49,247 nt of DNA, from contig JACQLK010000022.1 in assembly GCA_016204145.1 (NCBI GenBank), positions 1 through 49,247 of the forward strand, written 5' to 3'. Origin of the DNA: Candidatus Pacearchaeota archaeon. GTDB lineage: Archaea; Nanobdellota; Nanobdellia; Pacearchaeales; GW2011-AR1. Below the pieces are notes generated by a model. The model saw only the letters and a list, made by a program, of their open reading frames with translations. It was not told where the DNA came from and did no database searches. Below are positions 7,176-44,982 of the stretch, one piece after another (the stretch's first letter is position 1; each line of letters opens with the position of its first letter). Both the position numbers and the translations under genes were made by a program.

Positions 7176-7213
7176 ATCAAAATCTCCGCTTTATTTTTAC
7201 AATCTTTTACAAA

Positions 7214-7306: not shown

Positions 7307-7341
7307 TTAAAAATATAAATCGGGATTTCTCTTATAAAATT

Positions 7342-7854: not shown

Positions 7855-7888
7855 ATTCATTTATCTTCCAGTTTCCTTGGCTAATTTT

Positions 7889-8015: not shown

Positions 8016-8087
8016 TATGCAGAAATCCCTGCCGCCGCCAAAAATAAAACAAAATCAAACTCAATGCCATAATCTTAAAATTCCAAT

Positions 8088-8663: not shown

Positions 8664-8798
8664 GAATTCCTTTTTGATAAATTCGGTTTATAATTCTTTT
8701 CATAAAAACTTTGGAAACCTTTTTTCAAAGAAAGATTTATAAATGCTATGAATTTGTTTTATAGAATTCACTTACTGGATTAAAAAAACAAAAAAGGA

Positions 8799-19345: not shown

Positions 19346-22300
19346 ATGAAAATTTTTAATTTTGCATGGATTTTTTTATTTGTAATAATCTTCGCGGGAT
19401 TTGCAAGCGCGGATTATTTTCTTTCAAGTCCTCAAATCACAATGCCCGGAAGCGCGTTCAATTACGGCGGAAATCTTCCTCTCGGTCCGGCGTTCAATTC
19501 AAATTCATGCGGCGCGGGGCAGGATTTCATAATTCAAGTCGCGCCGTTCGGATGTTCTCCAAGCGTTGTGAGAAGCGATTTGCTTGAAGAGCAGAATGTT
19601 CCCGTTTTCTGCCAATTGATGGCGACAAAGTTAAATCCCTTGATTAACGTGCAGTCGATTGATTCAATTTCTTTCACAGGAAATTATCCCAATGAAGTTG
19701 CAGGAATAGGATTTAATCCGGCAAGAGCGGCATTGAGTTCAGCAGGACAGACATTTTTGAATTCTCCCGTGACAAACAACATCGGCTATGCCGTGATTGT
19801 CTTGAAACAGCAGCAAAACGAATCGTCAATGCCCGAATTTGTTTCAGGAAACCTCACGGCAAACATAAGATACAACATACAAAACGCGTTCGGCGTCGGA
19901 GCGGCGAATTATTTTGTTCCGGAATTGACAGAGGAAGAATGGGCGCAGAGATACGCGCAATACGGTTTCATGAACGGAAGGGGTTTTGTGAAAGCGGACA
20001 ACGTAAACGCGGACAGCGCGACAATTTCGCTTTATCTCGACAAAACAAATCGTCTTTCAACATTTAATTTGAGAAAAGGGGAAACATCCGGAGACGCTTA
20101 TCTTCCCGGATTTTATTGCGCCGCTTCGCTGAATGTGAGATTGGAAGGGGTTGAAAATCCCAATACAAGAGCGAGAATTGAAATCAACGGGGAAATAATT
20201 CAGGCGGGAGTCGGAGAGAGATTTCTTAATAATGCGTGCGTTGTTTCATCACCGCCGCAAAAAAGAGGAATGAGCGAGAGCGTTGATATCTCTTGCAGAA
20301 CAGACAGCGGAAACGAAAGAATCAATTTGATTATCGCGCCGAGGATAAAATTAAACGTCGATAATACCGAGAAGGCGTTCGGCGTCGGAGATTACATCGG
20401 AGAGGCGGCTGACAAAAAAAGCATTTATCTCGGATACATCGGAACAAAAGGCGACAGCAGAGACAAAAAGGACTTGTTTGTTTATTTTATTTCAATGCCG
20501 CAGAGAAAAGACAAATTGTCAAACGATGAAATTTCCAGAACAAATACAATTGTAAATTTGATAAGATACAATAAAATCACGACGATTGGCGTCATAGATG
20601 TTCCGCTTAACGCTTTCAAGAATTTTGCAGGAGCGTCAAATCTTGTTTATGAATTTTTCAAGGGGAACGAGTTTGTTTATCTTACTTCCTCGGAAAACGA
20701 GTTTTCCTTTGGCGGAAAAAAAATAAAACTCGTTGATTTCGTCGACGGGCAGGATATTAATTTCCCGGACGCGCAAACATCCGAGAACTACAAAAAAGCG
20801 ATGAGCGATTACAGGGAAATAATAAACAAATATCCCGGCGAGAAAGAGCCGAACAGCCAGGAGGCGTTTGGCAAACTTGCTTTAATCGAGGCGATAAAAC
20901 TTGCAAGTTCTGTTGAGCAGAAGAAAACATTGAGAGAATTGTGCGACGAATTCAGCCAAAAATATCCCGACGCAAAAGCAGAAGCTGTTAATCATTGCGA
21001 CTCTGTGAGAATTTCAAGTTCGGAATCCGCGACGCGCAAATTGCTCATCAACGGAAACGTAAAAGAAATTTCTTTTGACGGAATTTATCAGCCGTCTTTG
21101 GAAGAGTACAGCGCGGAGGTAAAAGTCACTTATCCCGACGGAAGAACCTCGGATATTTTCACGCTGACAAAAGACCAGACAATTATCCTAAATGAAACCA
21201 AAAACGAGTACGTTCAGCTTGTTTCATTGAGCGACAATTACGCGACAATTCAAATAAATCTTGTTCCGACGACAATAAGCGAGGCGTATACCGCTCCTTT
21301 TATCGCAAGCGTTAAAAACATCAACAAGGGAATTCAGGAAACGTTCGGAAGCGGCTACACGTTTACTCTTACGCAGATTAACCTGAAAAAGGTCGCGAAG
21401 GTTTCAATAATTCCCAACATAAAAAATTCCGGGACAACCGGGAATTTCAGCTTTACGGTAGGGATTGAAAAAAGAGCGATACAACTTACCCCTGATCAAA
21501 TTAGAGAGAGAATCCAATCGCTTAACGAATCAATTTCAGAATGGCAGGGAACTTCGGAGAAAGTCGGACAGGTTGTCAAAGGGTTTAATGCCGCATGCCT
21601 TGCCGTCGGAACCGCAATCACAGTGAAAAATCTTTTCCAAGGATTTGACGGAAAGGCGATTGCAAGACAAGAGGTAATGAGAAGCCCCGGGGGATGGATT
21701 GATTCCTGCACGCAAAAAGTAAATGAAAAACAATTCAGCACCGTTGATTCTTGTTTGCTGAAATATTCAGACGATATCGAAAAGGACGTGGGAATTGTCG
21801 AGGGAATAATAAAAAATCAAAAGCCGATAACAAATGAAAATGCGAATATTCGTTTAGCGGAAATAAGAAATTCGCTCGGAGATAAAATAGAAAATCCCAA
21901 TAAAAAAGGAGAATTCATCGAGCTTTCGGAGAATTCCGACGCGGGAGAGGCGTTTACAAACGAGGGAATAAAAAACGGAAGAATCACTTTGAGTCAGGCA
22001 AGGGATTTGGAGCGCCTTAATTCGGAGTTGAATTCCGCAGCGAGCCAGCAGGATAAAGAACTTGCGCAAAGAAAAATTTATTCAATTCTTTCGCAGATAA
22101 AAGCGAATTCAGAACAGCTTTCGTTGTACAATTCAATTCAGAGCGAATTAAATAAAGCAAACATCGGGGAGATAGGCGTTGTCGCTTACGGCGGAAAAAA
22201 CGCGATTGAAGGAAGTTATACCGGCGGGATAATAAAAGGAGACAAAATAATCGGCGCGGGAATTTCCGACGGCAAAGATTATCCCGCGCAAGTTGTTGTT

Positions 22301-25300
22301 TACAACAACAAAAAATATCTTTTGACATTGCAGGGCGCGGGTTCTTCTTATGCCATAAACAAGGTTTATCAATACGACGGAGCCGATTCAAATAGAATTT
22401 ATATCAAGCCGGTTGAGCCGGGGGAAGAAAATACAATAAGGGGCGCGTTTTCAAAATTCACAAGATACGATTTAGGATCTTATCAAAATAATTTCATAAA
22501 TCCAAGAGTAAGATATTTTGAAACAGAGCCGTACAAAGGACTGCCCGCAATTGTTCCTTTTGATACGAAAGCCGGATGGTATGTCGCGACAAAGCAAATC
22601 GTCGGCGGGCTTGCGGGAAGCGTTTCAGGGCAGGGAGGAATACGGGCTTATGATGATTCCGGACGACTGACAAGTTTTTATTTGTGCAACGTCGGACAAA
22701 ACGGAAGGGAAGAGTTCAATTCAAATCTCGGCGACGACGTTTGCAGAAGTTTTAATCCGGGTGTTTCGCAACTTCAGGGAACTTTCCAGGGTTTGAGCGA
22801 GAGCGACACAAATCGGATAATGTCCCGTGCTGTGCAGGCGGTGCAGGAAGCATCGACGCAATACAAACCGAGTTTGAGCGCGAGCGGGACGGTAAAAGTG
22901 CTGAATGAATTCATTCCCGTCGGGGAGCCGTCGATAAACACGCCGGACATTCAATGCCAGGATTTTATGTCTCCGAAAGAATGCAATATTTTATTCAATG
23001 TTTGCGATCCTGTTGTTTGTCCCGCGAGCAGATGCAATCTCGGCGGAGCATATAATGTTCCGGATGTAATTCAGTCGGGAATAATCGGAAGCGTTGCATT
23101 ATGTTTGCCAAATGCGAGAGAAAACATCGCGGTCCCAATTTGTCTTTCAGGAGTGAAGGCGGGAATAGACAGTTTTGTTTCCGTGGAGAAAAATTATCGG
23201 GATTGTTTGCAGACAAATCTCGACACGGGGAAGACGGTGGGAATTTGCGACCAGATACACAGCGTTTATCTCTGCGATTTCTTTTGGAGTCAGGCGCAGC
23301 CGATGGCGAAAGTAATTGTTCCAAAAATATTTGAAAAAATTCTCGGGCAAACGGGAAGGGGCGGCGGAGAATATTTGGGAGTTGCAAGCGCATGGGAAAA
23401 TGCGGGAAGGTCGATTGATTACATGACGCAATATTACGGCGCGGCGTCGTTCGAGGCGTTCAGGACGGGAATAATAAAAGAAGTCGGAAACGCTGTTTGC
23501 AGAAATTTTGTATCTGCGGCTTATCCTTCGAACATGAAATTTTTTGATTCATTGATAGAACCACAGTCGCCGCCGCAATATACCGCGTGGTTTTCAGAGC
23601 AGGCATACGCGACGTCGACAAATCCTCCGACTTCAAGATATAAAGTATTTTATCATATTTACGCGGGAGAAAACACAGGACAGGCGGGAAAAAATGCCGG
23701 AGCGTTTTACAGCGTTTATTTGAAATCGCCGAGCGGAAGTTCGTTTTACCAGTATTCTCCGACGCTGAATGTCGCCTCGGGATTTATTTCTCCGGCGGAC
23801 TATGCGTCAGAGACAAAGGATTTCACAGCTCCTTCGGGATACAAGGAACTTTGCATAAACGTGAACGGACAGGAGAATTGCGGATTCAATCAGGTCTCAA
23901 CCGACTTTGGACTGAAATATCTTCAGGACTCGTATGCGCAGAGCCAAATAAATCAGACGAGCATTCAATCGGAAAAGGATTGCGTTTCGGGAACTCCGTT
24001 TAATTTGTATTCCCTTGCAAATCCAAACATTCAGGAAGGAGCGACTCAATTTGTAGACCCTGCAATTTACAATCAGCAAATCGTCCGCGTTTGCTCTACC
24101 GAGAATCCCGGGAAAGGAACCGATCCGCATTCGGGAACAGAGAACAGCAGATGGATTCCCGTCGGAAATTGCGAGCCAACGGGAAAGTTGAAATGTTATC
24201 TCGATACAAAGAGCATCGGCAGCGCGATACAAGGCGCGGGCTTGAGGAACGAAACGCTTCAAGAACTTTCGAGATATTATTCAACGCAATTGCAAAATCA
24301 GACGCAGTTTGATTTCAATTCCGAATTGGAAAAAATAATCAAACTTGACAACAGCGGAAAAATAAGCCACATCACTCCGAGTTTGATTTCAAAAGCTATT
24401 CTCAACTTTCAGAAAGCAAAGTTCCTTTTGCTCAGGGGAAACGCCTACGGAGAAATTGCAAAGGGATTGTTTGAGAAATTGAAATTGACCACAACGCCGA
24501 GCGGAACGACGGCAGCAGAAGGAGTTATTTGCACGCCTGCTCCAGGAATAACTACAACAACTCCTTCAACGTCGGGAACGGGAATATTTAACATTCAAAA
24601 CATTGCATACGAATATCCGGTTTTAACTTTAAATAATCCCGGGTTTTTCGGAGGAAAAGATTATTATTTCAAATATTCAAATCAAAACAAAAATTGGGAT
24701 TGGTATTGGTCAAATGACAACTCGCAATGGACTGTCGTTGACAGTGATAATCTGCCCGAAAGAGGAAGCACATTAAGAGGGTTGGATGTAGACCTTATTG
24801 TAAATTTAAGGGGAGTTTCTTATGATGATGGAGTTGTAAATATAATTTCCACTGCGAAGAGTTTGCAAAACGATTTGTCAACGGAAAATGTCAAATTTTC
24901 AAACAGTGACAATTTATTCACGGTTTCCCAGAAAGAAAGCGGATTGCCAAGCAGCATTTATCTGAAATATGAAAATAGCAAATGGTTTTGGACATACAGT
25001 TCAACACAAAACGACTTGATTGATTTGTCCGACTTCACAAATTCCAAACTTAGCGTTGTGACAAATTACAACAAGCAAATATTTGCAAGCATTGCTGGAA
25101 AAAGTTATGAGGAAGGAGTCAAGATGATTTTCAGCATTGATGTCAAGGAGAAAATTATTTCAACAACCAGTGAAAGTTTGCCGAGCAATTCTGAACTGTC
25201 GAAAATTCCGGACAGCGGAGTTATTTGCACGCCTGTTCCAGGAACAACTACAACAACTCCTTCAACTTCGGGAACGGGAACATTCAATATTCAAAATATT

Positions 25301-26731
25301 GCATATGAATATCCGATTTTAACTTTAAACAATCCCGGATTTTTTGGAGGACTGACGCAAAAAACATATTACTTCAAATATTCAAATCAGAACAACAACT
25401 GGGCGTGGTATTGGTCAAATGACAATTCGCAATGGACTTCTGTTGACAGCAGTAATTTACCGACGAGAGCCAGCAATTTAAGAGGATTGGATACGGATCT
25501 TATCACAAACTTAAGGGGGGTTTCTTACGAGGACGGAGTTGCACAAATAATTTCAACGGCAAACAGTTTGCAAAATGATTTGTCAACAGAAAATGTCAAA
25601 TTTTCATATAGTGATAATTTATTTACAATTAATCAAAAAGAAGGCGGACTACCAAACAGCATTTATCTGAAATATGAAAACAGCAAATGGTTCTGGACAT
25701 ACAGTTCAACGCAAAACGACTGGATTGATTTGTCAGATTTCGCGAATTCAAAATTGAGCGTCGTGACAAATTATAACAAACAAATATTTGCAAGCATTGC
25801 CGGAAAGAATTTTAGAGACGGAGTAAAAATTATTTTCAGCATTGACGTAAAACAAAAAATAGTTGGAGCTAGCGGCGCTTCTGGAAGTCAGAAGTTAAGC
25901 AACTTGAATCTCGGAACTTGCACAACACGACAAGAATGCCAGAAAGCAATCGGCAACGGAATAATAAAAATCGCAAGAGATGTAAAAAACGCGGCGAACA
26001 TTCCCGATATTGATTCAACAATAAAAGCAGAAGGAGTCGCGGAAAATTTTGAATGTCTTGTACTGCAAATAGCAATGCAGGAAAGTTCGCTGCAGCATTG
26101 CCAAAATATTCAGCAAAATTTGGACCCTGTTTACTGCGACGGAGCCAAGGACAAAGTAAAAACGTTGAGCACTGCAAATGAAAATAGTTTTGGGGTTATG
26201 CAAATTAACACAAATGTTCATGCGGTTCCCGCGCAATATTTTGAAGAAGGGGTTTATTATGCTTCTTATAATATTTTTATTAAAAGCTATCTTGCCTATG
26301 GGCAGGAAGGAATGGCATTTAGACCGACTGGGACGACTTATTCAGGATGGAAAGCCGCGATAAGAAGTTACAATGGATGGGGTTACGGCGGAGATAATAA
26401 TTATGTTGAAAAAATAACAACAGATAGAAAACTTGAAATTCAGCAAATGTTTTCAGACGTTTGCGGCGGCTCAAATGTTGCGCCGATAAAAACTTTCCCG
26501 CAAGTTCCCGCGCCTTGGAGCGTTCAATCCGCGCTTGATTCCATTCAAACAAAGACGGGAAAATATTCAAATAATAAAGAATTCATAGACCAATTGTATC
26601 AGGACGGGATTTTGACGCAACCGGAATATATTGAAATCAGCGGCGACGGGTTTTTTAATCTGGAGGAGGACATGAATTACGTGAAAAATATTTTGCAGAA
26701 TAAGTTGGTTGAGCAGAGGAAAGGAACTTAA
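19346..26731 (+). CDS. Giant (2461 aa) exported protein with tandem internal repeats and C-terminal lytic-transglycosylase/SLT-like domain
   Basis: Signal peptide; long beta-rich and Cys-rich regions; about 232-aa tandem duplication; C-terminal 'LVLQIAMQESSLQHC...SFGVMQINTNVHAV...AIRSYNGWGYGGDNNYVEKI'. Confidence 0.85.
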   Translation: MKIFNFAWIFLFVIIFAGFASADYFLSSPQITMPGSAFNYGGNLPLGPAFNSNSCGAGQDFIIQVAPFGCSPSVVRSDLLEEQNVPVFCQLMATKLNPLINVQSIDSISFTGNYPNEVAGIGFNPARAALSSAGQTFLNSPVTNNIGYAVIVLKQQQNESSMPEFVSGNLTANIRYNIQNAFGVGAANYFVPELTEEEWAQRYAQYGFMNGRGFVKADNVNADSATISLYLDKTNRLSTFNLRKGETSGDAYLPGFYCAASLNVRLEGVENPNTRARIEINGEIIQAGVGERFLNNACVVSSPPQKRGMSESVDISCRTDSGNERINLIIAPRIKLNVDNTEKAFGVGDYIGEAADKKSIYLGYIGTKGDSRDKKDLFVYFISMPQRKDKLSNDEISRTNTIVNLIRYNKITTIGVIDVPLNAFKNFAGASNLVYEFFKGNEFVYLTSSENEFSFGGKKIKLVDFVDGQDINFPDAQTSENYKKAMSDYREIINKYPGEKEPNSQEAFGKLALIEAIKLASSVEQKKTLRELCDEFSQKYPDAKAEAVNHCDSVRISSSESATRKLLINGNVKEISFDGIYQPSLEEYSAEVKVTYPDGRTSDIFTLTKDQTIILNETKNEYVQLVSLSDNYATIQINLVPTTISEAYTAPFIASVKNINKGIQETFGSGYTFTLTQINLKKVAKVSIIPNIKNSGTTGNFSFTVGIEKRAIQLTPDQIRERIQSLNESISEWQGTSEKVGQVVKGFNAACLAVGTAITVKNLFQGFDGKAIARQEVMRSPGGWIDSCTQKVNEKQFSTVDSCLLKYSDDIEKDVGIVEGIIKNQKPITNENANIRLAEIRNSLGDKIENPNKKGEFIELSENSDAGEAFTNEGIKNGRITLSQARDLERLNSELNSAASQQDKELAQRKIYSILSQIKANSEQLSLYNSIQSELNKANIGEIGVVAYGGKNAIEGSYTGGIIKGDKIIGAGISDGKDYPAQVVVYNNKKYLLTLQGAGSSYAINKVYQYDGADSNRIYIKPVEPGEENTIRGAFSKFTRYDLGSYQNNFINPRVRYFETEPYKGLPAIVPFDTKAGWYVATKQIVGGLAGSVSGQGGIRAYDDSGRLTSFYLCNVGQNGREEFNSNLGDDVCRSFNPGVSQLQGTFQGLSESDTNRIMSRAVQAVQEASTQYKPSLSASGTVKVLNEFIPVGEPSINTPDIQCQDFMSPKECNILFNVCDPVVCPASRCNLGGAYNVPDVIQSGIIGSVALCLPNARENIAVPICLSGVKAGIDSFVSVEKNYRDCLQTNLDTGKTVGICDQIHSVYLCDFFWSQAQPMAKVIVPKIFEKILGQTGRGGGEYLGVASAWENAGRSIDYMTQYYGAASFEAFRTGIIKEVGNAVCRNFVSAAYPSNMKFFDSLIEPQSPPQYTAWFSEQAYATSTNPPTSRYKVFYHIYAGENTGQAGKNAGAFYSVYLKSPSGSSFYQYSPTLNVASGFISPADYASETKDFTAPSGYKELCINVNGQENCGFNQVSTDFGLKYLQDSYAQSQINQTSIQSEKDCVSGTPFNLYSLANPNIQEGATQFVDPAIYNQQIVRVCSTENPGKGTDPHSGTENSRWIPVGNCEPTGKLKCYLDTKSIGSAIQGAGLRNETLQELSRYYSTQLQNQTQFDFNSELEKIIKLDNSGKISHITPSLISKAILNFQKAKFLLLRGNAYGEIAKGLFEKLKLTTTPSGTTAAEGVICTPAPGITTTTPSTSGTGIFNIQNIAYEYPVLTLNNPGFFGGKDYYFKYSNQNKNWDWYWSNDNSQWTVVDSDNLPERGSTLRGLDVDLIVNLRGVSYDDGVVNIISTAKSLQNDLSTENVKFSNSDNLFTVSQKESGLPSSIYLKYENSKWFWTYSSTQNDLIDLSDFTNSKLSVVTNYNKQIFASIAGKSYEEGVKMIFSIDVKEKIISTTSESLPSNSELSKIPDSGVICTPVPGTTTTTPSTSGTGTFNIQNIAYEYPILTLNNPGFFGGLTQKTYYFKYSNQNNNWAWYWSNDNSQWTSVDSSNLPTRASNLRGLDTDLITNLRGVSYEDGVAQIISTANSLQNDLSTENVKFSYSDNLFTINQKEGGLPNSIYLKYENSKWFWTYSSTQNDWIDLSDFANSKLSVVTNYNKQIFASIAGKNFRDGVKIIFSIDVKQKIVGASGASGSQKLSNLNLGTCTTRQECQKAIGNGIIKIARDVKNAANIPDIDSTIKAEGVAENFECLVLQIAMQESSLQHCQNIQQNLDPVYCDGAKDKVKTLSTANENSFGVMQINTNVHAVPAQYFEEGVYYASYNIFIKSYLAYGQEGMAFRPTGTTYSGWKAAIRSYNGWGYGGDNNYVEKITTDRKLEIQQMFSDVCGGSNVAPIKTFPQVPAPWSVQSALDSIQTKTGKYSNNKEFIDQLYQDGILTQPEYIEISGDGFFNLEEDMNYVKNILQNKLVEQRKGT
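24521..25870 (+). repeat. Tandem in-frame duplication (about 696-nt period) inside the giant SLT protein gene
   Basis: 'ggagttatttgcacgcctg' at 24521 and 25217. Both units encode GVICTP.PG.TTTTPSTSGTG.FNIQNIAYEYP.LTLNNPGFFGG...KLSVVTNYNKQIFASIAGK. Confidence 0.93.
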
Positions 26732-33400: not shown

Positions 33401-33472
33401 GTTAATACATATATAATAAGTATTTTTCTAATATTACATACATTTATAATAGTTAATACATACATAGTAAGG
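33401..33472 (+). promoter_or_regulatory. Candidate promoter/operator of the giant surface gene
   Basis: Imperfect direct repeats gttaatacatatataataag (33401..33420) and gttaatacatacatagtaag (33452..33471), with TATA-like 'tttataat' (33443..33450) between them. The second repeat abuts ATG 33473. Confidence 0.5.
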
Positions 33473-36400
33473 ATGGGAGGGACTCGTTTAGCAAAAGCCA
33501 GAATAGCGGAGCTTAAGAAAAGGATAGCTCATGCAGAGCAAAAGAAAAAAGAATTTTCAGATTATTTGCGCGGATTGAAACAAAAATATCATCGCGGCGA
33601 AATTTCATATTCGTCTTTCCTTGAACATTTTTATCAAAAGCGAAACGGGCTTAATCTGAAGGAGTGGCTTCTTCATTTTGACGACTATATCAAGGATTGC
33701 AAAAAGGAAATAAGAAAAGAGAGAATAAAACTCCTTGGGAACTATTCTGTGTTTGCATTTTTGTCTTTAGTTTTTATTTCAATTTTCTTCTTGGCTTTTT
33801 CCAATATGAACATCGGCTTCACGGGCTTTGCAATTCAGGAAGGAGAAAATATTTCCGCAAATCAATCGATTTCAGAAGAAATAAACGGAGAGGTTCAAAA
33901 TGAAACGAGTCCTTCCCATCAGATTGGACAAGAACCTCTCCCGCCTTCTGAGAACATAACTGCAAACGAAAGTTCTATTTCAGGAAATTTCTCTTCGGGA
34001 AATTTAACAGAACAAAATGCGACAGAAATTAATCAAACGCAAATCAACGAAACGCAAAATATTTCCGCGGAAAACGAAACAATTCCGATTCAAAACATCA
34101 CAAATCAAACGACTCAAAACATTGCAGAACAGAATATAACGCAACAAAACGTCTCAATCGTTGAAGATGCCACAATAAACACGACACAAGTAACTCCAAA
34201 AATAAAACTTGGCGAGAAAGTAAAATGGAAAAAAACAATTTCCAGTAATGAAATCGGAAACGCCACAATAATTCTCCCGAAAAATTCAGAAAACATAACA
34301 ATAACAAAAATAAAAGAAAACAAAGAAGAAGACATAACTTCTTCAAGCTCCATAACGGGCGCGGTTGTCGGCGGTTCAAGAGAAAATTTCATTTTCCGAC
34401 TTTTAAAAAACATTTTTGGAAGAATAACGGGAAGAATCGTTGATGAAATCGCGAGGCAAAATGTAAGCGTTGAGGTTGAGATTGAAATTGACGAGATTCA
34501 AGCAGAATATGAAGTTGAATATGAGACGCCCGCGCCTTATTCTATTGAAGAAGACATTGCTTTTGGGAAAAGAGTAAAAATTTTCGGTCCCGACGCGGTT
34601 CATTATGAAAACGTTCTCGCTTTCACGAATATTTCTGAAAATTTGAATTTGAAAAATCCAAGCAAGATAAAAATAAAATGGATTGAGCAAAATATTTACA
34701 TAAATCCGGATTCTGTTCTTGACTCGGATGAAAACGGAATTTACGATTATGTCGAGTGGAATGTTCCGAGTTTGAGCGAGCAGACGTTTGAAATAATTGT
34801 AATCACGAAAGCCGAGCATCTTGATGAAAATTATAATTTTGTTTCCGACATTTATGAACAGGTTAAAGAACTGGATGGGATTTGGAGCGAAGAAATTCCA
34901 GATGCACATTATGTTCGCGTAACGTTTGAAAAAAATCTTACAAATGAAAATGATATAACAATTTATCCGCGAATTACAAGCGGAAATCCGACTATTGAGG
35001 TTTATGAGGAAAACGGAAATGATTTGGTTGCAGAATTTTCTTCGCTGAATGAAAACGAATACAATAAAGTTTTTTTGACGAATCTTATTTCTGAATCTCA
35101 AAATGTTTTCGATTTGAAAGTCGTTGGTGGAACAATTCAAATAGATTACATTGTTGACCCTGTAGAAGTCGGATTTTTTGACGATTTTGAAGGAACATTG
35201 GCAAAATGGGGAACGACGTCTTGGGTTGTGACTACAGCGCAATTTAAAAACGGCGCGCAGTCTCTGCAATCTGCAAACGGGCAGGAAGGAGACATCATCA
35301 CAGACCCGTTTGACACATCCAACGCAACTTCAATCAATATAAGTTTTTGGTTCAGAGACAACAATTTGGATGCGGGCGATATAGATTTTTATTTTTTTAA
35401 CGGCACAAGTTCCGCTTATGAGTTGCAGACAGAAACTCTTGAAACTGAAACGGCAGAAGATATTTGGACATTTAAAAGTTTCACAACTTCAAACAGCGAA
35501 TTCTTCATAAGCAATTTCAGCGTAAGATTCAATGCTAATTTGGGAAACGGAGAAAATTTCTGGGTTGATGACTTTTCAGTAAACAAGACGACTGTCGTCG
35601 TGGATTCAACATCTCCAGATGTCACAATAAACGTTCCACAGAACACGACATATCATGTGCATTTTGATTTGCCATTTAATTTCAATGTTTCTTTAAATGA
35701 AGCTGGAAATGCATTATATTCCCTTGACAATGGTTTTACAAATATTACAATGAACACAACAGACAATTTGAATTTTAATGCGACTCTTCTGGATTTGACT
35801 GAAGGAAGTTACACTTTCCAAGTTTATGCAAACGATACTGCTGGAAATGCAAATTATTCGGAAAGTGTTGTTTTTGATTTAGTCATGGATAATATGCTTG
35901 TCAACGGAACAACCGTTGCTCCAGACGGAATGCCGACAAATACCACTTTTGTAATTATAGATGAATCTTCTTCAAATGTTGTTTACAATGAAACAAACGA
36001 TACACACGAGACGTTGATTCCTTTGAACTCAACTTACACAATTGAAGTTCTTCCTTTGGAAATAGATTCCGTAGACAAAGTTGAATTTAATGACGTTAAT
36101 TTTTCTGAAATAAATGATACTGTCACAAGCATTGTTAAAATAAATGAAAACGAAACTCTTGGAAATTTCAGTACTGTATTTTCCGTAAGACCGCAGTTTG
36201 AAACATTTGAAAACGGAACCTTATTTTTTACCGCGAAAGCGAACGCTTTGTTCAGATGCGGAGAGTGGAATTACACTATGGAATCTTGCCAGGGGAACTG
36301 GAGTTTGTTCATGAACGATTTGATTCCAGGAGAAGAATACAATTTCACATTTTCCGGAACAAGGGGTTACGGAATAATAAACATTACAAATGCGACACAT

Positions 36401-39400
36401 CTTGACTCAAACAGGAGTTACATATCCGACATTTATGACTATGTAAAAGAATATGACGGCAATTGGTCTGAAATAATTCCCGACGGGCATTACGTTCGCG
36501 TCGTCTTTCAAGAAAATCTGACCTCGGGCAACGATATTACAATCGTGCCGAGAAATCTTTCCGGAGATGCGAGAGTTGAGGTTTATGAAAACGGGCAGGA
36601 CGTTTTGCTTTCGGAATTTTATCCTTTGATTGAAGGAGAATTAAATCAAATTCTTCTTACAAATCTTACAGGAACGCAAGATGTATTTGACTTGCGTGTT
36701 TCGGGGAACGATGTTGAATTTGATTACATCGTCGACCCAAACATCACTGTCATTGATACTCAATCCAAAGACGTTGGGATAACTCCGATTAACAGCACCG
36801 CATTTGTAATAGTCTGGAATAATATCTCCTCTGATGTTGCTTCAAACGGTTCATTCTTTAAAATAATGACAACAACAGGAAGCATTGTCCTTGATACTGT
36901 TAAAGTAGACGAAAATAATCCGAGAGTTTCCGTCGCCGCCCTCAATTCAACAACATTTGCCCTTGTTTATGTGAACGCATCAACAGCGGATGAATTAAGA
37001 ACAGTATGGACTACTGACGGAACGAAAGTTTTTGGTCCGACAACAGATGACGGCTCTATAGGGGTTGTTGGTTGGGATGTTTCTGCGACGGCGATAAATG
37101 AAACAGCTTATGTTTCCTGCTATGTTGACATGGGAACAGACGGAGATGGGGACGTTCACATAATAAATTATAATGCCGCATCGTCTGAAATAGGGCTTAA
37201 CGGAGACATTGACGCCAACCAAAATTATGCAAATCTTTTTGATTGCGCGACCATAAATTCAACGGCGTGGGCGGGAGTAACGTATGATGCAGTAGACGCC
37301 GATGTCGGATTGGCGGTTTATAATGACAGGGGAACTGCGATAACTGCGCTTACTCTCATAGATACAAGTGTAGGAACAGGCGGAGCGCAGGTTTCTGTTA
37401 CTGGATTGAATGGCGAGAATTTTGCAATGGTTTGGTTTACAAATCTGAGCACTGCAGACACAAACATAAGCGCAACGGTAAGAACTGCAAACAATGGCGT
37501 TGTAACGGCAAAAACAAGAATTGTAAACATGCCCGGAAATTGGACAAGAATTGATGCTGCAACAGTGGCGAATGACACGGGAGATTATCTTGTTCTCGGC
37601 TGGATTAATTTAACAACAAAAGGTGTTTTGGCTCAAACATTCAAACAAGATTTGACTCCCGCTTCCGGAATAATAACAATTGATACCGCCATGAACAGGG
37701 AATACCCTTTGTTTGACATAATTGGAAAAACAACCACGACATCTTTATGCAATGAGACATTTGCTATTGCCTATACAAATTTCACAAATTCTACTGTTGT
37801 AAAAACATATTGGATGAATGGAAGCATTTGGAATGGAGTTTGTCCTGCCCCCGCGGACAACACAAAACCCGCAATTTCAATTTTTTCTCCCGCAAACTTG
37901 ACAAACACGACGGATAATTTGATTGATATTCTCGCGACATATTCCGACGCCGGCGGGCTTTCTTCCGCGTGGTATAACAATGATACTCATGCCGTGGCAA
38001 ACAAATCTCTTGGAACCGTCGGTTCATTTACAAATATAACAAATCTGACTTGGGGCGAGGGCGGACACAATGTGACGGTTTATGTGAGCGACACTGCGGG
38101 AAATGAAAATTGGACTTCTGTAACATTTGAAGTTGATTCAATAAAGCCCGCGATAGAAATTGTTTCTCCTGCAATAAATAATTCAAACAGTAGCGATACG
38201 GCTCTTGATATTACTTATACTACATCCGATGCGCATCTGTTTAATTTTTGGTATGCAAATGATACGACAACGGGCGCAAACAAATCCCTTGGTGTCTTGG
38301 GAACATCATTTAACATCACGAATATAACTTGGGGCGAAGGAAAACATAATGTTACAATTTACGCAAATGATACTTTTGGAAACGTAAATCAAACAAGAAT
38401 CAGCTTCACGATTGATTCAACAAAACCTCTTGTAACAATAGCAAATCCGACGACAAACAATACAAACACAAGCGACAATCTTCTCGATATAAATTACATA
38501 CCGACGGACACTTTTACGCAAATAGATTCTGCATGGTATACCAACAATTCAGGAAATATAAACAAATCCCTTGGAACACTCGGCTCTTTGACAAATATTT
38601 CAAACATAACTTGGGGCGAAGGAAAACACAACGTTACAATATACACAAATGACACCGCCGGAAACGTGAATTTCACGACGATAAGTTTTACTGTTGACAC
38701 CGTAATCCCTGGAATTTCAATTGATTCCCCAAGCAACCTGACAAATTCAAGCAATCCTGGTCTTGATGTAAATTTCATAGCATCTGATTCCGGTTCCGGG
38801 TTGTTCAATTTTTGGTATGCAAACGACACCTATTCTGTTGCAAACAAATCCCTTGGTGTCTTGGGAACATCATTTAACATCACGAATATAACTTGGGGCG
38901 AAGGAAATCATAATGTAACGATCTGGGCAAATGATTCTGCTGGAAATTACAATTTTGCGTCTGTTACATTTGAAGTTGATTCAATAAAGCCCGCGATAGA
39001 AATTGTTTCTCCGACGGGGAACAACACAAACACAAGCGACACCGCTCTTGATGTTACTTACACGACTTCGGATTTGCATCTTTTCAACTTTTGGTATAAC
39101 AATGATACTCATGCCGCGGCAAACAAATCTCTCGGTGTCTTGGGAACTTCATTCAACATCACAAACATAACATGGGGCGAGGGAAAGCATAATGTCACAA
39201 TTTATTCAAACGACACGTTTGGAAATGTGAATTTCACGACGACAAGTTTCACAATAGATTCAACTCTTCCTTTGATAACAATAACAAATCCCGCAAGCAA
39301 TAACACAAACACAAGCGACAATGGTTTGGATGTAAATTATGTTGCAACCGACACTTTCACGCAAATCAGTTCGGCATGGTATACAAATAATTCTGGGAAC

Positions 39401-41473
39401 ATAAACAAATCTCTCGGTGTTTTGGGTTCTTTGACAAATATTTCAAACATAACATGGGGCGAAGGAAAACACAATGTAACGATTTACACAAACGATTCGG
39501 CAGGAAACGTGAATTTCACGACGATAAGTTTTACAATCGACACAATACAACCAACAATCTCCATCGCATCTCCGTCAAATAATTCAAACAGCAGCGATAC
39601 CGGTTTGGATGTTCTTTACATTCCAACAGACGCGGGAAGCGGTTTGTTTAACTTCTGGTACAACAACGACACTTATACTGCCGCAAATAAAAGTTTAGGT
39701 GTTTTAGGGACTTCATTTAATATCACAAATCTCACATGGGGCGAGGGAAAACATAATGTCACAATCTGGGCAAACGATTCTGCTGGAAATTACAATTTCG
39801 CGTCGATAAGTTTTACGATTGACACTATAAATCCTGATTTAAATATAACTTATCCGATTAACAACTCGGTTGTTTCCGATATTAATGCAGACATAAATTA
39901 CACTCGCTTGGATTCAGGAAGCGGTTTGTTTAATTGTTGGTATTCAAATGACACATATCTTGCAAATACAACGCTTTCAAATTGTGAAAATGTAACCGCG
40001 GTTATATGGGGGGAAGGGGCGCACAACGCCACAATTTGGGCGAATGATTCAAGTGGAAATTTAAACAAGACATCTGTGACTTTTACAATATCCCTAAATA
40101 ATCCCCCTGAGATAAGAAATATTTACAATGACACCGCGACCATAATTGCCGCCGCTTCCGGAATCAGTTCTGGACCTTTGAACACTTCATTGATAGTTAA
40201 CTTTTCTGTTTATGACGCTAACGGCGTTGCAAATATGGATAACTCAACAGCGACGGTAAATTTCTCAAAATCAGGCGAGGCATTGAGACAAAGTCCGACT
40301 TGCGATCAGGTTGAAGTAGGCACAAATGTCGCAAATTACAGTTGCAATGTAACAATGTCTTGGTATGACGGGGCGGGAACCTGGGCGGTTCAGGCGTTTA
40401 TTTCAGATTTGGACAGCAACGACGCTAAAAACAATTCCGCGAATTTCTCTGTTGGCGAGACAACAGGATTTGAATCCGGTTCTTTGACTTTTCCATTCTT
40501 ATCTCCGGGGTTAAAAAATCAAACCTCTGCTGTCGCGTTACGGCTGAACAATACAGGAAACAAGAACATGGCTGCAAACACGACGCAGGTAAACGCGACA
40601 AACCTTCGCGGAGAGATAACCTCTGCATTTGCCATATGGTCCGGAAACATTTCTACAAGTTGGGATTCAACAACGCTTGAGGCGTGCGACACAAGCGGCG
40701 GCGATGGAATAAGGGCAAATAATATGTCTTCCGGCAACTATGTAAATATCACCACTGCTAATTTGACAAAAGGAAATTATTTTGTCAATGACGGAAGCAC
40801 GGGACAGGAGGACTTTTATTTCTGCATAAAAACAGTCGGAGCTGAATTGACTTCGCAGCAATATTCCACTGCAAACGAAGGCGCGTGGACAATAAGAATC
40901 CTTCTCGCATTTGTCGCAATTCCAAGAAAGAGGAAAAAGAAAACTGAAAAAGACAAATTGCTCGAAACAATCTCTCTGCTTGTTGACGAATTCAAGGAAA
41001 AGCACCGATTAAGCAAAGAAGACACTATGAATCTTGTCATAAAAGAAATAAGAAAAAAATATAAAATAAACAGAAGTGAAATTCTTGAACTTTCTGAGGT
41101 TAAGAAAATTTCAATTCCCGCGACAATATTCTCAGAGAAAATGGGAATTTTGGAATCGCTTGTGAAATACATGAAGGAAAATCTTGAAATGAGCTACAAG
41201 GAAATTGCCGAGGAAATCAACAGGGATGAGAGGACAATTTGGACATCTTACAAAAACGCCGTCGAGAAACAAAAAGAAGTCATAGAAGAAACCGAAACAA
41301 ACATAACAATTCCCCTTTCAATTTTCAAAGACAGCAAATCCACAATACTTGAATCAATTGTTGTTTATTTGAAGGAAAACGGAATGAGATATTCGGAAAT
41401 CGGCGAATTGCTCAATCGGGACCAGAGAAACATATGGACTATTTACGACAGAGCCGCAAAGAAAAAAAGATAG
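33473..41473 (+). CDS. Giant (2666 aa) membrane-tethered surface protein: sequon-rich stalk, duplicated beta domains, eight Ig-like repeats, C-terminal tandem HTH-like repeats
   Basis: N-terminal basic coiled region plus TM (YSVFAFLSLVFISIFFLAF); eight 'WGEG.HN.T' repeats; C-terminal 'MSYKEIAEEINRDERTIWTSYKNA' and 'MRYSEIGELLNRDQRNIWTIYDRA'. Confidence 0.88.
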   Translation: MGGTRLAKARIAELKKRIAHAEQKKKEFSDYLRGLKQKYHRGEISYSSFLEHFYQKRNGLNLKEWLLHFDDYIKDCKKEIRKERIKLLGNYSVFAFLSLVFISIFFLAFSNMNIGFTGFAIQEGENISANQSISEEINGEVQNETSPSHQIGQEPLPPSENITANESSISGNFSSGNLTEQNATEINQTQINETQNISAENETIPIQNITNQTTQNIAEQNITQQNVSIVEDATINTTQVTPKIKLGEKVKWKKTISSNEIGNATIILPKNSENITITKIKENKEEDITSSSSITGAVVGGSRENFIFRLLKNIFGRITGRIVDEIARQNVSVEVEIEIDEIQAEYEVEYETPAPYSIEEDIAFGKRVKIFGPDAVHYENVLAFTNISENLNLKNPSKIKIKWIEQNIYINPDSVLDSDENGIYDYVEWNVPSLSEQTFEIIVITKAEHLDENYNFVSDIYEQVKELDGIWSEEIPDAHYVRVTFEKNLTNENDITIYPRITSGNPTIEVYEENGNDLVAEFSSLNENEYNKVFLTNLISESQNVFDLKVVGGTIQIDYIVDPVEVGFFDDFEGTLAKWGTTSWVVTTAQFKNGAQSLQSANGQEGDIITDPFDTSNATSINISFWFRDNNLDAGDIDFYFFNGTSSAYELQTETLETETAEDIWTFKSFTTSNSEFFISNFSVRFNANLGNGENFWVDDFSVNKTTVVVDSTSPDVTINVPQNTTYHVHFDLPFNFNVSLNEAGNALYSLDNGFTNITMNTTDNLNFNATLLDLTEGSYTFQVYANDTAGNANYSESVVFDLVMDNMLVNGTTVAPDGMPTNTTFVIIDESSSNVVYNETNDTHETLIPLNSTYTIEVLPLEIDSVDKVEFNDVNFSEINDTVTSIVKINENETLGNFSTVFSVRPQFETFENGTLFFTAKANALFRCGEWNYTMESCQGNWSLFMNDLIPGEEYNFTFSGTRGYGIINITNATHLDSNRSYISDIYDYVKEYDGNWSEIIPDGHYVRVVFQENLTSGNDITIVPRNLSGDARVEVYENGQDVLLSEFYPLIEGELNQILLTNLTGTQDVFDLRVSGNDVEFDYIVDPNITVIDTQSKDVGITPINSTAFVIVWNNISSDVASNGSFFKIMTTTGSIVLDTVKVDENNPRVSVAALNSTTFALVYVNASTADELRTVWTTDGTKVFGPTTDDGSIGVVGWDVSATAINETAYVSCYVDMGTDGDGDVHIINYNAASSEIGLNGDIDANQNYANLFDCATINSTAWAGVTYDAVDADVGLAVYNDRGTAITALTLIDTSVGTGGAQVSVTGLNGENFAMVWFTNLSTADTNISATVRTANNGVVTAKTRIVNMPGNWTRIDAATVANDTGDYLVLGWINLTTKGVLAQTFKQDLTPASGIITIDTAMNREYPLFDIIGKTTTTSLCNETFAIAYTNFTNSTVVKTYWMNGSIWNGVCPAPADNTKPAISIFSPANLTNTTDNLIDILATYSDAGGLSSAWYNNDTHAVANKSLGTVGSFTNITNLTWGEGGHNVTVYVSDTAGNENWTSVTFEVDSIKPAIEIVSPAINNSNSSDTALDITYTTSDAHLFNFWYANDTTTGANKSLGVLGTSFNITNITWGEGKHNVTIYANDTFGNVNQTRISFTIDSTKPLVTIANPTTNNTNTSDNLLDINYIPTDTFTQIDSAWYTNNSGNINKSLGTLGSLTNISNITWGEGKHNVTIYTNDTAGNVNFTTISFTVDTVIPGISIDSPSNLTNSSNPGLDVNFIASDSGSGLFNFWYANDTYSVANKSLGVLGTSFNITNITWGEGNHNVTIWANDSAGNYNFASVTFEVDSIKPAIEIVSPTGNNTNTSDTALDVTYTTSDLHLFNFWYNNDTHAAANKSLGVLGTSFNITNITWGEGKHNVTIYSNDTFGNVNFTTTSFTIDSTLPLITITNPASNNTNTSDNGLDVNYVATDTFTQISSAWYTNNSGNINKSLGVLGSLTNISNITWGEGKHNVTIYTNDSAGNVNFTTISFTIDTIQPTISIASPSNNSNSSDTGLDVLYIPTDAGSGLFNFWYNNDTYTAANKSLGVLGTSFNITNLTWGEGKHNVTIWANDSAGNYNFASISFTIDTINPDLNITYPINNSVVSDINADINYTRLDSGSGLFNCWYSNDTYLANTTLSNCENVTAVIWGEGAHNATIWANDSSGNLNKTSVTFTISLNNPPEIRNIYNDTATIIAAASGISSGPLNTSLIVNFSVYDANGVANMDNSTATVNFSKSGEALRQSPTCDQVEVGTNVANYSCNVTMSWYDGAGTWAVQAFISDLDSNDAKNNSANFSVGETTGFESGSLTFPFLSPGLKNQTSAVALRLNNTGNKNMAANTTQVNATNLRGEITSAFAIWSGNISTSWDSTTLEACDTSGGDGIRANNMSSGNYVNITTANLTKGNYFVNDGSTGQEDFYFCIKTVGAELTSQQYSTANEGAWTIRILLAFVAIPRKRKKKTEKDKLLETISLLVDEFKEKHRLSKEDTMNLVIKEIRKKYKINRSEILELSEVKKISIPATIFSEKMGILESLVKYMKENLEMSYKEIAEEINRDERTIWTSYKNAVEKQKEVIEETETNITIPLSIFKDSKSTILESIVVYLKENGMRYSEIGELLNRDQRNIWTIYDRAAKKKR
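37859..40100 (+). repeat. Eight tandem Ig-like coding repeats, with a duplicated three-repeat super-unit (843-nt period)
   Basis: Repeats 2-4 and 5-7 share an order (HLFNFWY / FTQI.SAWYTNNSGN / GSGLFNFWY...GNYNFAS). 'acatttgaagttgattcaataaagcccgcgatagaaattgtttctcc' at 38123 and, with one mismatch or none, at 38966. Confidence 0.9.
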
Positions 41474-41621: not shown

Positions 41622-42674
41622 ATGCATAAAATTAGGGGGGATAGAAAAATTTTTCTTTTGGCAATTTTGATAATCATGTCACTTTTAATTCCTTTTTCTT
41701 CCGCGGGATTTATTGACGATGCATGGGGAAAAATTACTGGAAAAGCGGCGCAATCGGTGAGTGTTAATATTACCATCGGCGTGCCTGAAATTCGAAATGT
41801 TTACAACAGCACTGCGACAATAATCGCCGCAGGCACAGGATTGAGTTCCGGTCCTGTAAATACTTCTTTAATAATTAATTTTTCTGTATATCTTGGCACA
41901 GGGGTGGCAAACATGGACAATGCGACAGCAACAATAAATTTTTCAAAAGCATCAGAAACATTGAGACAAAGTCCGACTTGCGATCAGGTTGAAGTGGGAA
42001 CAAATGTCGCAAATTACAGTTGCAATGTGACGATGTCTTGGTATGACGGGGCGGGAACATGGGCTATTCAGGCATTTATTTCAGATACCGGCGGAAACTC
42101 AGGAAAAAACAATTCCGCGAATTTCTCTGTTGGCGAGACAACAGGATTTCAAATGGGCGCATTAGGATGGGTTTCATTGTCTCCGGGCAGCACCAATCAA
42201 ACAGCCAGCGCCGCTTTGCGGCTGAACAATACGGGAAACAAAAACATGTCTGCAAACACGACGCAGGTAAACGCGACAAATCTTCGGGGAGAGACAGCGG
42301 CAAATAGATGGATTTCTGCAGGAAATATTTCGGTAAGCTGGGATGCAACAACGCTTGAGGCGTGCGACACAAGCGGAGGCAATGGAATTGCGGCAAACAA
42401 CATGAGCAACGGCACTTTTATAAACATAACAACAGCGAATCTGACAAAAGGACACTATCCTACAAATGATGGAAGCACGGGACAGGAAGATTTTTACTTT
42501 TGCATTAAAACAATCGGAAGCGAATTGACCTCGCAGTCATATTCGACGGCGGCGTACGGGCCTTGGATGGTTCAGATACTTCTAACGCCTTTGGTTTTAT
42601 TAAACATAAGAAGAAAAAATAAAAAGAATTATCGGAAATTAAATATGAATAGAGTTAAAAACTTTATCCACTAA
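41622..42674 (+). CDS. Exported paralog of the distal module of the giant surface protein, lacking HTH repeats
   Basis: Signal peptide. 'PEIRNVYNSTATIIAAGTGLSSGP.NTSLIINFSVY...LRQSPTCDQVEVGTNVANYSCNVTMSWYDGAGTWAIQAFISD' is highly similar to 40111..40900 of the upstream gene. Confidence 0.88.
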   Translation: MHKIRGDRKIFLLAILIIMSLLIPFSSAGFIDDAWGKITGKAAQSVSVNITIGVPEIRNVYNSTATIIAAGTGLSSGPVNTSLIINFSVYLGTGVANMDNATATINFSKASETLRQSPTCDQVEVGTNVANYSCNVTMSWYDGAGTWAIQAFISDTGGNSGKNNSANFSVGETTGFQMGALGWVSLSPGSTNQTASAALRLNNTGNKNMSANTTQVNATNLRGETAANRWISAGNISVSWDATTLEACDTSGGNGIAANNMSNGTFINITTANLTKGHYPTNDGSTGQEDFYFCIKTIGSELTSQSYSTAAYGPWMVQILLTPLVLLNIRRKNKKNYRKLNMNRVKNFIH

Positions 42675-42682
42675 ACGTCAAA

Positions 42683-43249
42683 ATGAAAAAAATATGCCAT
42701 AAAAAGGTTTTTATATTTTTAGCAACATTGATTTTGTTTAGCAGCAGCGTTCTTGCTTTTGCAGTATCTTCACAATATTATGAAGGCAATCCGTTGTATC
42801 TTCAACCGGGCGAGACCAGAGATGTAAAAATAATGCTTCAAAATCATGCCGGAACAGAAGATGTAAGCATAAAAACAGAAATTAGCGAGGGCAAAGAGAT
42901 TGTTGAATTGAAAGATTCTAATGATATTTTTTTGGTTCCACAAGGAGGAAAGACAGACGTGTACTTTAAAATCAGCGCTCCTTTTAATGCCAAGAAAGGA
43001 GATGTTTTCCCAGTTACTCTGATGTTTGCATCCTCTACTGTCGGGGGAGAAGATCCGATAGGGCTCAGCGGCAGCATTGGAAAGGGATTTAACGTTGTAA
43101 TCGGAGAGCCGTCTGATTTTGAGGCAAAAGAAGCCAAATTTTCGCCAAAAGTTATATACGGATTAATAGGAGTTGTTTTGGTGGTTATCGCATTCTTAAT
43201 CGCAAGAAAAAAGTTTTCAAAGAAAAATAAGAAAACCAACAAATTTTAA
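42683..43249 (+). CDS. Exported membrane-anchored protein with Ig-like/NEW3-like beta domain
   Basis: Signal peptide, 'YLQPGETRDVKIMLQNHAGTEDVSIK', C-terminal TM (VIYGLIGVVLVVIAFLIARKKF). Confidence 0.75.
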   Translation: MKKICHKKVFIFLATLILFSSSVLAFAVSSQYYEGNPLYLQPGETRDVKIMLQNHAGTEDVSIKTEISEGKEIVELKDSNDIFLVPQGGKTDVYFKISAPFNAKKGDVFPVTLMFASSTVGGEDPIGLSGSIGKGFNVVIGEPSDFEAKEAKFSPKVIYGLIGVVLVVIAFLIARKKFSKKNKKTNKF

Positions 43250-43272: not shown

Positions 43273-44982
43273 ATGAAAAAAGAGGTTTTATTTGTTCTTT
43301 TAGCCGCAATAGTATTCTTAACAATAATTTATCAAACGAAGGCCGAAAATAATGTTATAACCGGAGAATCGGTTACGGGAGATGTTACAAATATTCTTGT
43401 TTTGAACATAACCGTCTCGGGACCGCCAGGATTGACTCTTCTGTCCCCAAAAAATCATACTTATTTCTCAAGCCAAAATTTGGTTTTGAATTTTTCAGTA
43501 AGCGACGAAGAATGGATAAAATATAGCATTGATTCCGCCGCCAATGTGACAATAACGGGAAACATAAAATTCAATACAAGCGAAGGAAGCCACAGCTTGT
43601 TTCTTTATGCGAACAACAGCAACGGACTTACAATAGAAAACGTGACATTTTTTGTAAACTCAAATCAAATTAAAATTAATTATACGAAATATTCCAATTC
43701 TTACAAGGGAGAATCTACCGATTTTAATGCTTCGTCTTATTCAGAGATACAAAACATATCGGGAATAATTTTAGAGCATACAAGTTTTGGGAAAATTTTG
43801 TTCAACGAAATTATTAATGTAACTGACGATGCGGATTTCAGCGATAACACGGTTGATTTGGACAATTATATTAATATTTCTTTAAATAGAACTTATGTGA
43901 ATTCAACCGCACTGCCGAATTTCAACAAATCAGCGACGCTGACTTTGCATAATTTGACTTTCACAAATCCGAGGGTTTTGCGCGACGGTTCTGTTTGTTC
44001 TTCAACAATTTGCACAGAGCAGAGTTATTCCGGAGGAACTTTTGTTTTTAATGTCACGGGATTCAGCGTTTACAGCGCGGAAGAAACGCCTTCCGAAGAT
44101 ACACCTTCAGGAACAATCTCTCCGGGAGGAGGCGGCTCTTCGGGAGGATCTTCAGGCAGCAGCAGCGGAGTCCTATCAAAAATCCTTCCGACAAAAAGGG
44201 GAATTGAAATAAGCGAAGAAGATGTAAAAGTAAAATTAAGGCCGGGGCAGGTCGTGACAAAAAAAATCACAATAACAAACAACGATTACAAAAAATTAAG
44301 CGTTAACATTGAAAATCCGCGACTGAAGGATTTTATCATAATCAAAGAGCCGGCTTTTGGTTTGGTTCCGGGAGAGTCAAAAGAAATTCTAATGGACATA
44401 ATTGCGAGAGAAGACGCAAAGCCGGATTTGTATCTTGGATATTTGCTTGTGAAGACGGAATTTGAAGAAAAGCAAATCCCTGTCGCAATTGAGGTCGAAT
44501 CCTTAAAATCATTGCTTGATGCAAGAGCGGAAATATTAAAAGAATACAAAGAGATTCTTCCGGGAGAAGAAATTCTGGCAGAAGTGAAATTGTTCAATCT
44601 CGGATATACCGGAAGAGTTGACGTCTCCATGGAATACATAATAAAAGATTATGACGGAAATGAAATCAGCATCAAGCACGAAATTCTTGCAATAGAAACG
44701 CAGACAAATTTTATCCGGGAAATAAGCATTCCTAAAAATGCAAAATACGGAGAATATGTCCTTTATGTCCGCGCGACTTACAACGGCGAAATCGCCAGCG
44801 CTTCCGATGGATTTGAAGTCGTGCAATACAAGGTCACGAACAAAGAAAAGATATTTATAGCCGCGATTATTGTTTTAACAATATTATTGGCTTTGTTTGC
44901 ATATTACGAAATAAGGGAAAAAACAAATTCCGTAATGAGCATAAGAAAAAAAGTCGGCGTAAAAGAGATGATAAAAAAATAA
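43273..44982 (+). CDS. Exported membrane-anchored multi-beta-domain surface protein
   Basis: Signal peptide, sequon-rich region, Gly/Ser linker 'SPGGGGSSGGSSGSSSG', Ig-like domains, C-terminal TM plus basic tail. Confidence 0.8.
   Translation: MKKEVLFVLLAAIVFLTIIYQTKAENNVITGESVTGDVTNILVLNITVSGPPGLTLLSPKNHTYFSSQNLVLNFSVSDEEWIKYSIDSAANVTITGNIKFNTSEGSHSLFLYANNSNGLTIENVTFFVNSNQIKINYTKYSNSYKGESTDFNASSYSEIQNISGIILEHTSFGKILFNEIINVTDDADFSDNTVDLDNYINISLNRTYVNSTALPNFNKSATLTLHNLTFTNPRVLRDGSVCSSTICTEQSYSGGTFVFNVTGFSVYSAEETPSEDTPSGTISPGGGGSSGGSSGSSSGVLSKILPTKRGIEISEEDVKVKLRPGQVVTKKITITNNDYKKLSVNIENPRLKDFIIIKEPAFGLVPGESKEILMDIIAREDAKPDLYLGYLLVKTEFEEKQIPVAIEVESLKSLLDARAEILKEYKEILPGEEILAEVKLFNLGYTGRVDVSMEYIIKDYDGNEISIKHEILAIETQTNFIREISIPKNAKYGEYVLYVRATYNGEIASASDGFEVVQYKVTNKEKIFIAAIIVLTILLALFAYYEIREKTNSVMSIRKKVGVKEMIKK

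Follow-up and report, generated by a model that had tools for sequence, protein, structure and literature searches.

A giant surface protein of a Candidatus Pacearchaeota archaeon is probably its own transcription regulator, acting through a membrane-tethered tail that would bind the promoter of its own gene. The window that we analyzed is one contig of 49,247 bases from a genome of 756,625 bases (34 contigs, 88% complete), and it carries at 33473–41473 on the forward strand an ORF of 2,666 amino acids with an ATG start, which matches its earlier description exactly. Computational analysis establishes the architecture of this protein, the fold of its tail, the coupling of tail genes with surface-protein genes, the specificity of the operators, and an association between residues of the tail and bases of the operator. 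What these results suggest first is an autoregulated surface-protein operon.

Architecture of the giant protein

33473–41473, forward strand: giant surface protein with C-terminal tandem helix-turn-helix (HTH) units, 2,666 aa (ORF)
33473–33736, forward strand: basic N-terminal domain, probably cytoplasmic, aa 1–88 (zero sequons; gNterm profile)
33746–33802, forward strand: first transmembrane segment (TM1), aa 92–110, SVFAFLSLVFISIFFLAFS (hydropathy; predicted insertion energy about -2.2 kcal/mol)
33803–40882, forward strand: Ig-like, sequon-rich ectodomain, aa 111–2470 (Big_13 in Pfam; sequon counts)
40883–40924, forward strand: AWTIRILLAFVAIP, aa 2471–2484, final strand of the terminal beta-domain plus a hydrophobic extension, candidate short second transmembrane segment (TM2)
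40925–40942, forward strand: RKRKKK polybasic run (conserved basic run in fused homologues)
40943–41104, forward strand: helical linker, aa 2491–2544 (AlphaFold helices)
41105–41269, forward strand: HTH1, aa 2545–2599 (residue 44 is Thr2588, the proposed reader of the right half-site)
41300–41470, forward strand: HTH2, aa 2610–2666 (residue 109 is Asn2653, the proposed reader of the left half-site)

The initial annotation had described a basic N-terminus, one clear transmembrane segment and a sequon-rich ectodomain, followed by a short hydrophobic stretch, the RKRKKK run and two tandem repeats, and all of these are present as quoted. Specifically, the ectodomain holds 157 sequons (N-x-S/T), compared with 58 in shuffles of its own residues, and Pfam detects Big_13 Ig domains within it; the giant protein as a whole matched no named Pfam family. 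The N-terminal domain (aa 1–88) is shared with the partner proteins of standalone HTH genes described below, and its gNterm profile matches 43 proteins across loci.

The same architecture is seen again in about 30 other loci, including contigs of 829 and 575 kb, and is therefore not an assembly artefact. The window also contains a second giant ORF (19346–26731; 2,461 aa) with a signal-like N-terminus, for which we found no HTH tail, operator or convincing Pfam match.

The tail is predicted to fold as a pair of HTH units

The C-terminal repeats had been likened to HTH units of the sigma region 4 type, a resemblance borne out by a Pfam match of the tail to Sigma70_r4_2 (E = 4e-9, score above the gathering score) and by its predicted fold. 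AlphaFold, proposed by the same annotation as a check on the C-terminal region, gives two HTH units for the tail core when run with 91 homologues (mean pLDDT 92.3, pTM 0.84), each consisting of a short strand and three helices. In Foldseek, single units match DNA-bound sigmaE region 4, SigR region 4 and other DNA-binding HTHs; for these models, such matches are a resemblance in fold. The whole tail model returned nothing in Foldseek at E ≤ 0.001, and sequence searches gave no convincing homologue of the tail with a solved structure.

Some relatives elaborate on this plan. In loci L063 and L075, one giant protein ends in two complete HTH pairs in tandem, and an HTH-fused giant protein of L034 has a long insert (about 7099–8926, beginning CYDSETEIFTDKGWKLFN) that looks like an intein or Hint domain.

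Distribution of the family and its two forms

The annotation had also suggested looking for the C-terminal repeat on other archaeal proteins, and this search is productive: the tail profile matches 158 of 371 genomes sampled across the phylum, and 121 of the 243 that are more complete. Matches at E ≤ 0.01 occur in 30 of 140 relatives, about 21 of them strong and the others weak. These tails make up a genuine family of regulators. Scanning species genomes yielded 122 loci, and the best 80 of these, which were kept, are mostly labelled Pacearchaeota, Woesearchaeota or Nanoarchaeota; among the matches kept, the closest named relatives of the tail come from Candidatus Pacearchaeota and Nanoarchaeota genomes. 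Going by their titles, all genomes are uncultured assemblies, and the loci are phylogenetically related. The genome of the window has a single copy of the tail. A viral origin was considered and rejected, as the viral contigs searched yielded no tail relative.

The family takes two forms. In the fused form, found in Pacearchaeota, the HTH pair lies at the C-terminus of a giant protein with the order basic N-terminal domain, TM1, ectodomain, terminal beta-domain (ending Y-S-T...G-[AS]-W-[TI]-x-I), hydrophobic stretch, basic run and HTH1-HTH2. In the standalone form, found in Woesearchaeota, it is a separate protein of about 180 aa without a clear membrane segment or signal. A tree of the core places 33 fused and 4 standalone rows in one supported set, and the HTH fusion may have a single origin.

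One Woesearchaeota clade (L078, L083–L086, L091 and L124) has its first, standalone HTH gene after a conserved gene of about 736 aa, which we take by eye to be topoisomerase-like, and before a gene for a small membrane protein. The second HTH gene of L078, L083, L084, L086, L088 and L091 has a degenerate HTH1, with EIALAV replacing ERTIWT, and the right half-site is likewise degenerate.

Coupling of the regulator with surface-protein genes

Among the 57 standalone HTH genes with room downstream (one of which, in L071, is probably a truncated fused gene), the next ORF has an early transmembrane segment in 51. The HTH gene overlaps the start of 47 of these 51 ORFs, most commonly by 4 bp. A sequon-rich surface protein comes next in 41 of the 57, compared with 2 of 205 soluble control genes at the same loci; the P-values for this coupling are very small (3e-32) but overstated because the loci are related.

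Fused genes are followed by a conserved series, which the window also shows between 41622 and 44982:

41622–42674, forward strand: operon gene 2, 350 aa, a copy of the giant protein's terminal domain, no HTH
42683–43249, forward strand: operon gene 3, 188 aa, two transmembrane segments (order conserved downstream of fused genes)
43273–44982, forward strand: operon gene 4, 569 aa, Ig-like, two transmembrane segments (order conserved downstream of fused genes)

Most fused loci whose downstream sequence is long enough keep the order giant-HTH, terminal-domain copy, 188-aa type and 569-aa type. Together with the coupling of standalone genes to their partners, it follows that one kind of surface protein has this regulator either next to it or fused to it, which we read as a first independent sign that HTH pair and surface protein cooperate. 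The 350-aa gene of the window repeats much of the giant protein's terminal region nearly verbatim and, unlike its relatives, ends in a hydrophobic and RRKNKK tail, again with no HTH; this is perhaps the result of a recent exchange with the 3' end of the giant gene.

Predicted operators before the gene

From aligned upstream regions we derived an operator pseudo-palindrome, TACAYAHATARTAAGTA, and the promoter of the giant gene contains two copies:

33406–33422, forward strand: operator O1, TACATATATAATAAGTA (TACAYAHATARTAAGTA matched exactly)
33443–33450, forward strand: TATA-box-like TTTATAAT (sequence and distance, 30 nt 5' of the ATG)
33457–33473, forward strand: operator O2, TACATACATAGTAAGGA (1 mismatch to the pattern; ends at the first base of the start codon)

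The operators are spaced 51 bp apart, and the arrangement suggests a leaderless geometry at the giant gene. Allowing up to 2 mismatches, 0.03 matches are expected in the window, compared with the two found. In the entire 756-kb genome, sites with at most 1 mismatch are O1 and O2 only, both directly 5' of the giant gene; a control pattern read backward has one match.

This specificity extends to other genomes. The 140 relatives hold 27 exact sites in 18 genomes (2 for the backward control), nearly all lying 5' of the gene start for a giant protein that has the typical N-terminal domain. Some of these genomes lack an HTH end, probably owing to contig breaks. With a slightly wider pattern, exact sites occur in 29 of the 371 phylum genomes, 26 of which carry the HTH (6 for the backward control). 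Allowing 3 mismatches at most, 16 of 20 fused genes and 38 of 56 standalone genes have a site before them, compared with 9 of 581 control upstream regions; for the bare dyad with one mismatch, the counts are 13 of 20, 41 of 56 and 6 of 581. Of 77 promoters, 58 contain sites by weight matrix and 47 of these at least two, compared with 1.2 of 77 after shuffling; since these promoters also served to train the matrix, the contrast is somewhat flattering. The site thresholds are our own choice, and for some family members these searches found no upstream operator.

Where several operators share a promoter, their spacings cluster at 21, 31, 41, 52 and 62 bp, i.e. with a period of 10.5 bp and phase zero (R = 0.72, n = 102), so the operators lie on one helix face. 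One divergent clade of fused genes uses a 15-bp operator variant of its own, AACACATATTAAGTW, with a spacer two bases shorter: two copies precede the gene in L105 and six, at 20-bp steps, in L119, while L127 has two related copies. The upstream region of L116 also shows this variant.

Phased sites, up to 6–7 per promoter, together with a membrane-bound DNA binder, would also suit an anchor, in which operator binding mainly holds the operon or chromosome at the membrane beside the surface protein and does not control transcription. We consider this improbable, since the sites flank the TATA box and adjoin the start codon, and the soluble standalone form keeps the same sites.

A proposed two-residue recognition code

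Position 5 of the operator, counted in a 19-mer and corresponding to the n in the left half TACnTA, was set against each core residue in turn. Its strongest associate by a wide margin is residue 109, at the third place of the HTH2 recognition helix: promoters with A at this position belong to proteins with N109 in 26 of 26 cases, and those with T to proteins with T109 in 25 of 27. The two exceptions (L085 and L097) also have A at promoter-proximal sites. The trend is the same, though noisier, in an unbiased template scan (19/2 and 5/24), and on contigs with two HTH genes the operator types lie mostly before the matching paralogues.

On the tree, residue 109 requires about three changes (1–3 independent pairs, too few for significance), so the P-values of the covariation are overstated. 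Given so few independent N/T switches, the prediction was tested on held-out loci, namely 73 further unused HTH genes, using a matrix that ignored the variable positions; a site was present in 41 of these genes. All 40 informative cases agree for residue 109: N109 goes with A in 2 of 2, and T109 with T (36) or C (2) in 38 of 38. For the homologous residue 44 of HTH1 and the right half, read on the opposite strand, T44 goes with T or C in 28 of 28 and N44 with A or G in 4 of 4. Most simply read, Asn would go with a purine and Thr with a pyrimidine, the left half being contacted by HTH2 and the right half by HTH1. The protein of the window, with T44 and N109, has exactly the site that this code predicts. 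The left-half code varies in standalone proteins only: every fused protein with a scored site has N109, so the fused form agrees with the code without showing any variation in it.

With operators at their own promoters and residue-base covariation, the repeats behave like sequence-specific DNA binders, in keeping with the DNA- or protein-binding module that the annotation had envisaged. As the operator motif is a computational find, another cellular factor might in principle bind it, leaving the HTH tail a different role. The HTH is encoded in 26 of the 29 genomes that have exact sites, and the operator base tracks the recognition residue also out of sample; both make such a factor very unlikely.

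Topology and the second hydrophobic segment

The membrane topology, which the annotation had asked to be predicted, comes out clearly for TM1, whereas the second segment is short and marginal, and the accompanying caveat about its length stands. The hydrophobic stretch and basic run follow one another in 30 of 30 aligned fused homologues, with a median of about 15 residues from the conserved W to the basic run. The predicted insertion energy of the TM2 candidate is 0.7 kcal/mol in the window, with a family median of 1.2, on a scale with approximate parameters. In 28 of 30 proteins the candidate outscores every ectodomain segment, the automatic pick being wrong for two of the proteins. In L105 and L119 the segment is full-length (21–22 residues), and G200 has just 7 hydrophobic residues before the arginines. 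In the AlphaFold model, TIRI is a strand belonging to the terminal domain, and the remainder of the segment is unstructured, with no helix after it. A second transmembrane segment is plausible but short.

Several observations, mostly indirect, bear on the side of the membrane on which the tail lies. Sequon density per 100 residues is 0.74 in the tail and 0.84 in standalone HTHs, compared with 1.9–8.0 in ectodomains. The hydrophobic extension is absent in 20 of about 21 downstream terminal-domain copies, which end at the strand; only the 350-aa gene of the window departs from this, with a hydrophobic and basic tail. The HTH tail is best read as a cytoplasmic C-terminus, because it has soluble homologues with an equal sequon rate, a conserved basic run and operators at its own promoter, and because the hydrophobic extension accompanies the HTH. 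Binding of DNA in the cytoplasm is well supported as a prediction. The weak TM2, for which AlphaFold shows no transmembrane helix, would suit an HTH pair that is extracellular and binds external DNA; set against the own-promoter operators, the sequon-poor tail and the soluble homologues without signal or transmembrane segment, that placement seems extremely improbable.

Proposed mechanism

In the mechanism that we favor, TM1 would anchor the giant protein with its N-terminus inside and the Ig ectodomain outside, and the chain would re-enter the cytoplasm via the short hydrophobic segment, with RKRKKK behind it. The HTH pair would act as a built-in pseudo-dimer on the 17-bp operator TACnTA-N5-TAnGTA, with HTH2 (Asn2653) reading the left half and HTH1 (Thr2588) the right. 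O1 and O2, 51 bp apart on the same helical face, flank the TATA-like box, O2 lying over the start region. As O2 ends on the ATG and the TATA-like box lies 30 nt upstream, bound protein would cover the start region, and with operators on both sides of the box the full-length protein probably represses its own operon, setting the number of giant proteins per cell. Repression rather than activation is probable from operator geometry alone, and we infer copy-number homeostasis as the minimal function. In Woesearchaeota, this regulator is instead a soluble protein in its own right, its gene being coupled to that of the surface protein.

A variant of this mechanism has the tail cut at or near the hydrophobic stretch, so that a free HTH fragment regulates the promoter. 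The linker past the stretch is basic and of low confidence in AlphaFold, and the freed piece would equal the soluble standalone protein; however, we identified neither a conserved cleavage motif nor a protease gene, and the linker length varies, so that we regard release as unlikely. An internal translation start yielding a free HTH was rejected, as by eye the aligned linkers have no conserved Met.

The initial annotation had in mind a one-chain surface-to-nucleoid sensor. Here this would mean that the tail's hold on the operator shifts when the ectodomain meets a host or ligand, so that an outside signal reaches the promoter through a single chain. This reading is autoregulation by the tethered tail plus a sensing step, and our confidences in the two overlap. 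The architecture suits a one-component transmembrane regulator, HTH and operator are real, and the standalone versions look like a regulator gene coupled to a membrane partner. Yet in its own genome the operator is confined to the protein's own operon, with no other target seen, and we put the sensor forward tentatively.

Relation to known systems

Archaea use TBP/TFB. In pairs of ECF sigma factors and membrane anti-sigma factors, the sigma gene lies alongside the membrane anti-sigma gene. The standalone form is similar in that its sigma-4-like HTH gene overlaps a gene for a membrane protein, whose N-terminal cytoplasmic part is joined to an external domain; it differs in its tandem HTH pair with palindromic operators, and the N-terminus of many partners is short. 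The tail does have the sigma region 4 HTH (Sigma70_r4_2 and the single-unit Foldseek matches), but an ECF sigma factor was rejected, as Pfam finds no region-2 match and NCBIfam sigma70-ECF scores 20.4 bits against a cut-off of 42.9. An archaeosortase-type C-terminal sorting signal (PGF-CTERM and similar) was rejected too: NCBIfam shows no match to one, and the protein does not end with the basic run but continues into the HTHs.

Transmembrane transcription regulators (TTRs), which combine a DNA-binding domain and a transmembrane region in one chain and control transcription while in the membrane, are reported to be widespread in bacteria and archaea (PMC10269533). The giant protein has a predicted DNA-binding domain (Sigma70_r4_2; HTH pLDDT 92) and at least one transmembrane segment (TM1), and so fits the broad TTR definition, with the cytoplasmic placement of the DNA-binding part predicted. 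It differs in its Ig ectodomain of about 2,400 aa, its C-terminal tandem sigma-4-like HTHs and an operator that occurs at its own operon only. DPANN are not mentioned in the main text of the TTR survey (PMC10269533). ArnR and ArnR1 of Sulfolobus acidocaldarius are membrane-bound HTH regulators of a surface structure, and the ArnR target promoter has two inverted-repeat boxes with a 5-bp spacer, TCGAC-N5-GTCGA (PMC6396743). An archaeal membrane HTH regulator and inverted repeats with a 5-bp spacer are common to both systems, although the boxes differ in sequence from the giant protein's operator. ArnR has an N-terminal HTH, HAMP, a sensor domain and two C-terminal transmembrane segments, and is not itself a surface protein; an ArnR-type regulator was rejected, since the HTHs of the giant protein are C-terminal and Pfam finds no HAMP match. 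Other DPANN giant surface proteins, e.g. those of nanohaloarchaea, are likewise very large and belong to presumed episymbionts, and the available part of that work describes no attached DNA-binding tail (PMC10266531).

As predicted from its sequence, the giant protein would be a variant form of TTR. The literature searched, with subscription papers outside the search, held no earlier report of such a protein. To our knowledge, it would be the first adhesin-like surface protein with its own operator-binding domain. DPANN archaea are mostly uncultured, and their surface proteins are presumed to contact hosts. For this group, the analysis provides a regulator family that occurs in roughly half (121/243) of the sampled genomes of higher completeness, and the family comes with a predicted binding site, a two-residue recognition code and target operons. 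It is conceivable, on a par with any sensing step at all or slightly less so, that engagement of the ectodomain alters operator binding by the HTH tail, such that surface-protein production answers contact without an intermediate. If that were true, one polypeptide would link the exterior of an episymbiont cell directly to its own promoter.
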